64,000 bases of DNA from contig NZ_CP065193.1 in NCBI RefSeq assembly GCF_018831625.1, forward strand, positions 620,001-684,000. Reading direction: 5' to 3'. This document shows, piece after piece, positions 58,307-62,995 of this stretch (within the stretch, counting starts at the first letter, position 1; every line of letters starts with the position of its first letter). The position numbers and the translations under genes are program-made. Source of the stretch: Spiroplasma endosymbiont of 'Nebria riversi'. Its GTDB lineage: Bacteria > Bacillota_I > Bacilli_A > Mycoplasmatales > Nriv7. The notes below the pieces were generated by a model. The model was not told where the DNA came from and searched no databases. It saw nothing but the letters and a program-made list of their open reading frames with translations.

Positions 58307-60535
58307 ATTATAAAATCGATAACATTTAAACAAGTTTTAGACAAAGTTAAAACCTATATTAGTAATGAAAAAGATATTGAGGAAATAAAACGCGCATATG
58401 CCTATGCTTATAATAAACATGATCAGCAGTTAAGAAGAAGTGGTGAACCTTATATTAATCATCCTTTATGAACAATTTATTATTTGGCAACATGGCATAT
58501 GGATTTAGCAACATTAATTTCTGGTTTATTACACGATGTGTTAGAAGACACACCGACAACTTTTGAAGACTTGAATAAAGAGTTTGGTGGTGAGATATCA
58601 ACTTTAGTTGAAGCAGTCACGAAAGTATCTTATTTTGCTAAAATGAATCGTAGTGAAATTAAATCTAATTATTTGCGAAAGTTATATTTAAGTATGGCGC
58701 ACGATATTCGTGTTATTGTTATTAAGTTAGCAGATCGTTTGCATAATATCCAAACAATTGAATATTTGGAACCAGAAAAACAAAAAGTTATTGCGAAAGA
58801 AACTTTAGAAGTTTATTCTTCAATTGCGCACCGGTTAGGGATGCGACAAGTAAAAAGTCTTTTAGAAGACTTGTCTTTCGCAATTTTAAATCCTGTTGAA
58901 TATAAAAGAATTTCTCACAATGTTGATTTGGAAAAAGAACATTTAGAATCATTAATGGTCGTAATGATTAACAATATTAAGTCATTATTAAATAGTAAGA
59001 ATATTAAAGCAACAATTTCTGGTCGTAGCAAAAGTATTTATTCAATTTATCGCAAGATGTATTATTTTGGGCGTAAATTTGAAGATATTCATGATTTATT
59101 AGCGATAAGAATTATTACTAATACGATTGATGAATGTTATACGATTTTAGGTTATTTGCATCAGCGATTTCCACCTTTACCAGGAAGATTTAAGGACTAT
59201 ATTGCAACACCTAAATATAATTTATATCAGTCATTACATACAACAGTTATTCAAGATGCAACAATTTATGAGATTCAAATTCGAACTGTTGATATGGATG
59301 AAAAAGCAACTTATGGAGCAGCATCGCATTGAAAATACAAAGAGGGCGAAATCTATAATACTAAAAAACGCCAAGCTGATATTGATGAGCGCTTAGATAT
59401 CTTTAATCGGATTTTAGATTTAGAAAATATTAACAATGAAGAGTTAGAAAATAATGAAAAACCAAATATGGAGTTAGCCGTTAAGAGTGATATTTTTACT
59501 TCTTTAATTTATGTTTTAACTCCTAATGGTAAAGTTATTACTTTGCCTTTTGGGTCAACAATTTTAGATTTTGCATATAAAGTTCATACTGATATTGGCG
59601 AGAAAACTACGGGTGGTAAGATTAATGGTAACTATGTTTCTGTTAATACTGTTTTAAAATCTGGTGATGTTGTGGAAATTAAAACTAGTAAAAATATGCG
59701 ACCATCTCGTGATTGATTAGTTATTGCTAAAACTAGTTATGCATTGCATAAAATTAAAAGATTTTTAAAAAAACAAGAACAAGAATTTGATGAAACTCAT
59801 AAAGATAGTGAATCTAAAAATCTTAAAAAAATTAAAAATGTTAAAAAAGCGATTGATGATACTTTAACACAGCGAAAATTAAAATGAAAGTTAGTTTCCC
59901 AAAAAGAACTGATGTATCGCTTAAAGCAATTAAAATATCATACTTTAGAAGATTTTTATTTAGATGTTGCTAATAAGAAATATCAACTTGATGATGCGAT
60001 TAATCTTTTATTAGCAAGTAATAAAACTAGTCCTAATACTTATTTAAATCATCTTCAAGAAAAAAAAGTTGAAAAAATTAACTTAAAAGATGACTTTATT
60101 GTTAAAGGTGATGATAATATTAAAGCAACTTTAGCTCATTGTTGTATGCCAGTACCGTTAGAACCAATTACGGGATATGTTAGTAAACTTGGCGGGATTC
60201 GCGTGCATCGTGTTAATTGCCATAATATTCTTCCAGAAGAACGCCAAGGACGACTTTTGGAAGTGTGGTGGAATGAAAACGTCGTTAAGCGCCATCAATA
60301 TTATAGTAATATTAAAGTAATTTGTTACGACCGTGATGGTTTAATGGCTAATATTACCAATACTCTTGTTAATTTAAATGCTTCGATTCAACAAATTCAT
60401 ATTGAAACAAGTTCGGATAATAAATACATTATTAATCTTGTTATTAAAATTGCCAACAAAGTTCTGCTTCAACAATTGTTGTCATCATTACGACAAATAC
60501 CCCATGTGTACGATGTCGTTGTAACGGGAAACTAG
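58307..60535 (+). CDS. rel: Bifunctional (p)ppGpp synthetase/hydrolase, Rel family
   Basis: About 742 residues. HD hydrolase domain: RRSGEPYINHPLWTIYY, LLHDVLEDTPTTFEDL, and VIVIKLADRLHNI (~145). Synthetase: SGRSKSIYSIYRKM, HDLLAIRIIT, DYIATPKYNLYQSLHTTV. TGS domain ~398-460 (DIFTSLIYVLTPNGKVITLP), then zinc-finger-like HCCMPVPLEPITGYVSKLGG and C-terminal ACT. No ATG, GTG or TTG in frame ahead of the conserved HD part (first TTG 58484 is inside it), so the start is probably ATT/ATA near 58307, 6 nt after AAGTGAG. Start position uncertain. Confidence 0.88.
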
Positions 60536-60546
60536 ATATATAGTAA

Positions 60547-60588
60547 AATAAGTCTCTAACAAAGGAATTTAGTTAGAGACTTATTTTT
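60547..60588 (+). terminator. Terminator after rel
   Basis: AAGTCTCTAAC/GTTAGAGACTT stem followed by ATTTTTT; may also close the minus-strand microgene. Confidence 0.9.
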
Positions 60589-60608
60589 TATTTTGTTATC
60601 TTAATTTG

Positions 60609-60701
60609 TTAGCAACTATGTTTACTAGTACTATCTTTCTTACAGTCCTTGCAATTATGTCCCTCAGAACAAGAACATTTGCAGTTCTTACAATTGTTCA
60701 T
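60609..60701 (-). CDS. Metallothionein-like 30-residue cysteine-rich protein
   Basis: On the minus strand AAAGGGGGCAATAAA precedes ATG (60699-60701). The product MNNCKNCKCSCSEGHNCKDC then KKDSTSKHSC has 7 Cys, 2 His and 7 Lys in 30 residues, with CxxCxCxC and CxxC spacing as in small metallothioneins or copper chelators. No membrane or signal segment. Likely binds Cu(I) or Zn(II). Upstream is IS1595-type copy 5, which may have replaced its promoter. Short length leaves doubt, but codon structure, site and composition agree. Confidence 0.65.
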   Translation of the reverse strand: MNNCKNCKCSCSEGHNCKDCKKDSTSKHSC

Positions 60702-60736
60702 TTTATTGCCCCCTTTCTTCTTATGTAGAATAGTTT

Positions 60737-61864
60737 TTTAATTTTGTCGAAAACTCTTGATAAAATAAAAAAATCATCAACTTGATAATTTTAAAAGGCT
60801 TTTATGTAAAATTACTATTTTTACTTTAATTTTTTATACATTAAAATATAATACTGCTGTTTTTTGATTTGGAGTTAAACCCTTATGCTGGTATTTTCGT
60901 TTTCAGAGATTTAAATAATTTTTAATATTAGTAAAATCTAAACCATGATAATGAATTAAGGCTTTTTTAAGACTAGATTGTAATTTACTGATTTTATTTA
61001 AGTTACGATAATTAGCTTCAGGATTAATTGTTGTTTTAGTTACACATAAAGTAGAATTTGTTTGTTTTGCTACTAAAAAATATAATTTTTGCATATCAGA
61101 AGTAATAATTGAATTTTGGTTAATTAATTCTTTGTTCATATTTTCAATAACTCATTGTTTTTGTAAACGTTTGGTGTTTGTGGATTTAACATAAATATTG
61201 TTATTATTATCAACTGCCATTTGAATACAGCATTTAGTATTAGTTGCGAATGGGTCAAGGTGAATTCTTCGTGGATCAGTTTTATGTTTGAAATTTCCTT
61301 TATGAATTTCTTTAATAAATGTTTCATCGATTTGGATTTTACCAGATAATTTTTTAAATTTTAATTGGGTATTTTCTAATTGTTTTGATTTCATTAATTT
61401 TTGACGATTATATCAAGCAGTTTTTAATGTAGTTTTAATAAAACGAGAAATTGTTTTACTAGATTGCCCCAGCAATGAAATTTGAATCAATAAATTTCAT
61501 TGCTCATAATTTAAATGACTTCAATAAATAAAATGATTACGAAAAGCGTCAAAACTTGCACGGCAATTTTTACATAAATATTTTTGTTTTCCTTCTGAAT
61601 TATGTCCATTTTTAACGCAATGGCAAGATTCACATTTAGGGCATTTAATACCTTGTGCTCTAAATTTTTGATCAATTTCATTTAAACGTTTTTGTTTTTT
61701 TATTAATTCTGCTTGTTGTTTGACTTTTTCATAAAATTCTAAAAATTGATCATCTGTTAAAGTATTTACTAGTTCTTTAATTATTTCCCACCTCCTATCA
61801 TATTAAAAATATACCTAAAATTAAGTATATTCAATAAATATCAAGAGTTTTCTACAAAATTAAA
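60737..61864 (-). mobile_element. IS1595-type element, copy 5 (complete, with target duplication)
   Basis: Both inverted repeats are present. The sequence agaatagttt is found directly outside both ends (60727-60736 and 61865-61874), giving the 8-10 bp duplication. It lies between the metallothionein-like gene and an IS3 relic. Confidence 0.88.
60834..61785 (-). pseudogene. IS1595-type transposase, copy 5, start codon lost
   Basis: The body is open from the zinc ribbon (CPKCESCHCVKNGHNSEG) to TAA at 60834. About 15 bp covering ATGGAAAAA are deleted (GGAGGTGGGAAATAATTAAA), leaving no in-frame start near the AGGAGGTG site. Confidence 0.75.
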
Positions 61865-61873
61865 AGAATAGTT

Positions 61874-62995
61874 TGGTATGGCAACCCTTTTTTGGACACT
61901 TTTTATGTAGACTGTCATTTTCTAAATTCAACAGGCGTTAAATAATTTAAACTGCCATATATTCTAAGATTATTGTATTAATTAACAAAATAAAAATTAA
62001 CATTTTAATTGTGTTAAATTTTCAAATTTTTTACCCTTGATAAATTCCGTTTTAAAAGTTTTGTAAGTTGTTTCAGCCACAGCATTGTCATGAGGACAAA
62101 CCTTCGCACTCAATGATCTTTTAATATTAAAGGTTATTAAAATTTCATCAATGATTTTATTTTTGAACTCATTACCACGATCAGTATGAAATAAAGTTAT
62201 TTAATTTAATGGTCGTGAAATTTTATTAAAAGTATGATGAACTAGTTCAGCGGTTTTGTTTGGTCCGGCACTATAGCCAGTTATTTCTCGATTAAACAAG
62301 TCAATTAATAAACAAATATAATGTCATTCACCTCCAACTTGCACATATGTTAAATCACTAACAACAACTTCATTAGGTTTTTTGTTATTAAATTGACGAT
62401 TTAAAACATTACTAATTTGGTCATTATTAACCATTGTTTTATGATTACGATATTTTAATTTGGTGTATTTAGAAACCAAATTATTTTTGATCATAAGGAA
62501 TATGATTTTTCGACGTGATAAGATAATATCTTTTATCATTAAAACAGCTTTAATTTTACGAGAACCATAAATTTTACGACTTTTATTAAATGCACTGATA
62601 ACTTCTTCTTCATAATTATTAACATCATACTTAACACAATTATTAGTTTGATAATATTATGTTGATTTTGCTATTTTTAATATTTGACACATTTTTAGCA
62701 CGGAATATTTTTCTTTATTATTGTTAATAATTCCTGTTTTTTGCCAATTATCAGTGCTGCTTGCTTTAAAATGTCATTTCTCATTCGTAATTGTTGGTTT
62801 TCTTTTCGCGAGTAAATTAATTCATTTTCTTCGACAGTGCGATTATCTTACACTTTAAATGACCCAAAATTATTAAAATTTTCAATTCACTGAATATACG
62901 GCTGATTTTGAAACTCCGTATTCTTTAATAATTTCAACAATGCTTTTTCCGTTTTGATAAAGCATGACAATTTTTTTTAAATTCATTTGAATATT
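61874..62995 (-). mobile_element. IS3-type element, degenerate and left-truncated
   Basis: The right end TGGTATGGCAACCCTTTTTT is intact. orfB carries TAA for a Trp TGA (near 61978) and a frameshift near 62660; orfA reads from LIIGK back to [16 protein letters not shown] and is then cut by IS1595-type copy 6. Confidence 0.8.

Follow-up and report, generated by a model that had tools for sequence, protein, structure and literature searches.

The microgene at the rel locus

The DNA analyzed here, referred to as the window, is a stretch of 64,000 nucleotides from the Spiroplasma endosymbiont of 'Nebria riversi' (contig NZ_CP065193.1). The genome of the window is designated G000 and four further genomes of its genus G001 to G004; all other G numbers refer to other genomes of the order. 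TGA is read as Trp in this genome. The features of interest, in window coordinates, are as follows.

58310..60535, plus strand: rel, a gene of the RelA/SpoT family
60545..60587, both strands: hairpin, from RNA folding, able to terminate rel (plus strand) and the microgene (minus strand)
60609..60701, minus strand: microgene coding sequence, 30 codons plus TAA, encoding MNNCKNCKCSCSEGHNCKDCKKDSTSKHSC; the short paralogue of the family described below
60702..60735, minus strand: residual ancestral leader, 34 bases, matching positions 77-110 of the leader in relatives at 94%
60709..60718, minus strand: ribosome-binding site, AGAAAGGGGG (AGAAAGGAGG in G002 and G004)
60736..61865, minus strand: IS1595/ISXO2-type element with an interrupted transposase frame

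The peptide MNNCKNCKCSCSEGHNCKDCKKDSTSKHSC contains seven Cys and two His residues, has the spacing CxxCxCxC...CxxC, and is devoid of aromatic residues. Its ribosome-binding site lies 7 bases 5' of the ATG and differs by one base from the AGAAAGGAGG of the relatives. The original prediction, made from the window alone, had described a hidden, metallothionein-like gene of 30 codons on the minus strand; its coordinates, residue counts, and Cys spacings all proved exact, and the ribosome-binding site it called is present. Likewise borne out is the placement of the microgene between the rel terminator and an insertion sequence that has cut its upstream region. The hairpin is real, with a folding energy of -19.7 kcal/mol (z -6.2), and the element ends at ~60736, 35 bases upstream of the microgene.

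In the relatives the short paralogue is preceded by a common leader of ~110 bases that includes TTGATATAAG, a putative extended -10 element. The rest of this leader, TTGATATAAG included, finds chance-level matches alone anywhere in the genome of the window, and the insertion sequence has thus probably taken away the upstream sequence that held the native promoter. With 34 leader bases left, expression of the window copy is uncertain; it may be driven by the insertion sequence or be weak. A candidate regulatory site in the leader of the relatives' short paralogue, TTATCA-T-TGATA, has no counterpart at the long paralogue described below.

Several minor observations pertain to the surrounding DNA. 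The start codon of rel (58310-58312) is ATA here versus ATG in the relatives, and the frame is otherwise open. An intact copy of the IS1595-type element (L010:8081-9040) matches PF12762. A second, different insertion sequence follows directly, from ~61873 (region 60736-62300), and several further copies of both types occur within the window. Matches to the insertion sequences at 85% were found only in Spiroplasma plasmids.

Two paralogues in the genus

Open reading frames of 20-60 amino acids that begin with ATG and contain at least seven Cys residues arose five times in 60 windows of 64 kb simulated from composition alone. Three occur in the real window, and two of these are not otherwise gene-like. 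Composition is therefore only mild evidence for a gene at 60609-60701, and for this reason its conservation was examined. A search with the single window peptide detected the microgene in all five genomes of the genus with E-values of 2.6e-8 or better. In each it lies beside rel, and it is intact in four and cut by an insertion element in one. The orthologues in G002, G003, and G004 are 87-93% identical to the window copy, whereas in G001 (L005) the last ~22 codons are left and the end of an insertion sequence stands in place of the start. Substitutions follow the reading frame, with pS 0.213, pN 0.034, and pN/pS 0.16, and seven of the ten variable sites occupy third codon positions. A chance open reading frame is ruled out by this conservation. 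Ruled out as well is the mirror frame on the plus strand (60606-60728), for the variable sites fall at the third codon positions of the minus-strand frame.

Judged from its sequence, 60609-60701 is a real, conserved gene, because of its synteny, its frame-specific substitutions, and the ribosome-binding sites and mostly present downstream hairpins found across a family in five genera. Conservation is the decisive evidence, and in this respect the prediction of a hidden gene holds. The prediction had also named the Cys spacing and frame in related genomes as the point at which it could fail, and both are conserved.

What the prediction missed is that the window copy is atypical and shortened, and that a canonical eight-Cys copy lies elsewhere in the same genome. 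The latter was found with the family profile.

G000:C1:265034-265189, plus strand: canonical (long) paralogue, MTDNCKLRCVACQCTCRTPGAEHQSNNINNCSDCPTCKSEDNHERKPPRKF, 51 residues, eight Cys

G002, G003, and G004 have orthologues of the long paralogue in which the leader is conserved and a hairpin lies downstream; G001 gave no match. The gene displays a pN/pS of 0.08, with eight of 11 variable sites at third positions. Relative to the canonical form, the window copy has no counterpart of the initial Cys or of the Cys that closes C-x2-C-x2-C; both His residues are retained, and the last His is followed by an extra Cys that the canonical form does not possess. The metal capacity of the window copy may accordingly be reduced, given the two missing canonical Cys residues, and most of the function in this genome may fall to the canonical paralogue. 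Note that in G000 the long paralogue, which lies outside the window, has IS-like sequence just past its terminator (L134, L146).

A family within the order

The family occurs in at least 25 genomes belonging to five genera (g1, g13, g15, g25, and g30) and three families of the order; 25 of the 320 genomes of the order have at least one intact copy. A DNA pattern encoding C-x2-C-x-C-x-C-x5-C-x2-C was employed, with the reversed pattern as the control. In g13 it yielded ten clear genes of the MECNKDCKDCNCSCDLDDNCAECQMCSTDTNHG type, every one preceded by a ribosome-binding site and almost all followed by a hairpin, which is the usual make-up of genes in this family; the reversed pattern yielded zero genes in g13. 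The g13 members show a pN/pS of 0.23, with 20 of 35 variable sites at third positions, and TGT/TGC exchanges at four of the eight invariant Cys codons. Profiles, the best match of which in another genus had an E-value of 1.7e-15, added g15 (three genomes) and g25 (six genomes with an intact copy), and a pattern match in G155 is a nine-Cys member in g30. Among the weak matches from single-sequence searches, that in G056 is a real member and those in G096, G108 (at that place), and G015 are spurious. Pattern matches of the TGTTGT/TGCTGC type are simple repeats.

The searches yielded no match in roughly half of the genomes of g13 and g25, nor in any g5 genome searched, and the family is therefore dispensable. 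A profile search of samples of 395 genomes of the class and 363 of the phylum, order members included, revealed no member outside the order, and searches of plasmids, phages, and viral contigs with the long paralogue were empty. A motif scan of a contig collection, which returned no Mollicute and so appears not to cover the order, gave 34 matches, all of them Cys runs, chance frames, or fragments and none a family-like short gene. Degraded copies were encountered in G114 (L128), with an in-frame TAA, and in G078 (L127), where the N-terminal Cys cluster is lost. The second copy in G125 (L135, G125:C1:638748-638834) keeps the N-terminal C-x3-C-x2-C-x-C-x-C half and has a different end.

No neighbor is conserved across the genera. 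In g13 (G108, G022, G056, G036, and G125) the microgene follows a gene of the PNP/UDP nucleosidase family, probably mtnN, and a nadD-like gene. This arrangement was counted in the five canonical neighborhoods that could be assigned to it, with G090, G069, G102, and G152 left out. The degraded copy in G078 is on the same side of the nucleosidase gene, ~0.6 kb away. The gene ahead of the microgene is of the GidA/TrmFO type in G120, and lepA is a neighbor in both G031 and G035.

The canonical pattern is C-x3-C-x2-C-x-C-x-C-xn-C-x2-C-x2-C-x5-H within 33-51 residues, and the spacer often contains another His. A second form, in G191, G087, and the second copy of G081, ends in C-x2-C-x-C-x3-H. In an alignment of 18 members, six Cys residues and the C-terminal His are invariant, and the mean column identity is 38%. 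Spacing is fixed inside each Cys half, and the spacer that joins the halves can be 5 to 14 residues long. The conserved features are thus almost limited to putative ligand positions, as would fit a metal-thiolate cluster peptide. In G146, a His occupies the position of the first Cys, an exchange that favors metal ligation over a disulfide or thioether role.

Proposed function and relation to known proteins

The peptides, of 30-51 amino acids with 7-9 Cys (15-24% Cys) and 0-3 aromatic residues, are tiny and Cys-rich and contain both CxC and CxxC motifs, and in sequence they look like metallothioneins in the broad functional sense. The metallothionein-like character proposed in the original prediction finds support in this composition and in the fixed Cys/His spacing with loose spacers. 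The most probable reading, which we hold with good confidence, is that translation of the microgene yields a metallothionein-like peptide that is cytosolic, as no signal sequence is apparent, and whose thiolate cluster would buffer or store soft metal ions, most likely Zn(II) and possibly Cu(I). Zn(II) is favored because the His is invariant. Metal binding, the metal itself, and the physiological role are what we infer from these features. No metal-transport or metal-sensor gene was recognized beside the microgene in the neighborhoods read, and the physiological role is therefore proposed from the peptide. An AlphaFold prediction for the 30-mer (pLDDT 61, pTM 0.18) gave no confident apo fold, as should be the case if the peptide folds upon metal binding; a single sequence served as the input, which makes this weak evidence.

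With somewhat less assurance, we consider it likely that these genes constitute a metallothionein family not described before, confined as far as the sampling goes to Mollicutes of the Spiroplasma type and with two paralogues in the genus of the window, one of them trimmed from eight to seven Cys residues. The family is apparently unannotated, and small metal chelators, none of which were found in the literature searched for Mollicutes, seem undescribed in these organisms. Should this be correct, the family would supply the first metallothionein to be described from wall-less bacteria. Genes of 30-50 codons can escape notice in such genomes. An eight-Cys-plus-His family that is absent from curated libraries and short enough for synthesis makes metal handling in reduced, host-associated bacteria directly testable, and the trimmed copy provides a natural test of the number of thiolates that such a cluster needs.

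Another explanation, which we judge improbable, is that the peptide is structural, a small zinc finger or adaptor in which one or two Zn ions held by Cys and His shape a surface for binding nucleic acid or a partner protein instead of being buffered. The CxxC pairs and the conserved C-terminal His are zinc-finger-like ligands, and the C-terminal half, C-x2-C-x2-C-x5-H, is strictly spaced. Besides the ligands, however, little is conserved in a family with 38% mean column identity and a variable spacer, a hydrophobic or aromatic core is almost nil, and the one match to zf-CXXC is at chance level (E 0.6). Moreover, the window copy dispenses with two canonical ligand positions and has one other instead.

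An iron-sulfur peptide is very unlikely. The N-terminal C-x3-C-x2-C of canonical members is reminiscent of the radical-SAM triad, their C-x2-C-x2-C looks like a ferredoxin half-site, and there is one chance-level match to Fer4_4 (E 0.41). An intact set of cluster cysteines is nevertheless not common to all members: the short paralogue in the genus of the window is without the first Cys of the former motif and the third of the latter, such that both sites would be broken in a gene that is still under purifying selection. Hydrophobic packing residues are also few. Little credence can similarly be given to a thiol redox buffer, in which oxidants or electrophiles are scavenged and metal binding is incidental. 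Such a role is possible for Cys-rich cytosolic peptides, and metallothioneins have been noted to scavenge reactive oxygen and nitrogen species (PMC7387436), but a metal cluster accounts better than a simple thiol pool for the invariant His and the strictness of the Cys spacing. Least likely of all is a RiPP precursor with crosslinked Cys residues, for which the peptides are suitably short and Cys-rich and a model of Cys-rich radical-SAM RiPPs gives matches to two members (E 0.054), but no maturase was recognized beside the gene when the nearest neighbors were scanned against Pfam, the loci differ between genera (rel, nucleosidase, GidA/TrmFO-type, lepA, and others), a leader/core division is absent, and His can stand in for Cys.

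The metallothionein-like reading invites comparison with characterized proteins. No credible match to the family was found in Pfam, NCBIfam, PHROGs, or the chains of the PDB; the PDB search matched no metallothionein of known structure, and the Pfam bacterial metallothionein family matched neither the window copy nor any of 18 members at E-values up to 10. The SmtA/BmtA proteins of cyanobacteria and Pseudomonas, with Zn3-4 Cys9His clusters, are likewise small and Cys-rich with both Cys and His ligands. The microgene family differs from them in having no Pfam match, its own Cys order, 7-9 Cys in 30-51 residues, and no link to an SmtB-type repressor such as accompanies the cyanobacterial form; the neighbors here are rel, insertion sequences, a nucleosidase gene, lepA, and others. 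The best reading would thus be a metallothionein in function, though one that falls outside the SmtA/BmtA family. The mycobacterial copper metallothionein MymT is likewise short, Cys-rich, bacterial, and outside the SmtA family, and its sequence and Cys order appear to differ from those of the microgene family. Fungal copper metallothioneins of the Neurospora type are CxC-rich peptides of ~25 residues with seven Cys and are not known to have the conserved His. They share the Cys number of the window copy, a putative likeness between unrelated organisms. According to a 2020 paper, SmtA and MymT were until then the only two metallothioneins of bacteria whose biological function had been investigated; MymT is reported to be crucial for copper detoxification, and the SmtA/BmtA-type proteins of Pseudomonas are also without a linked metal-responsive regulator (PMC7387436).

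Only two types of regulator were recognized near family genes. In G022 an HxlR-type gene is convergent with the microgene (L101:7861-8169), and in G002 and G003 a winged-helix gene lies downstream of the long paralogue (L147:1801-2259 in G002); a regulatory link is possible in each case.
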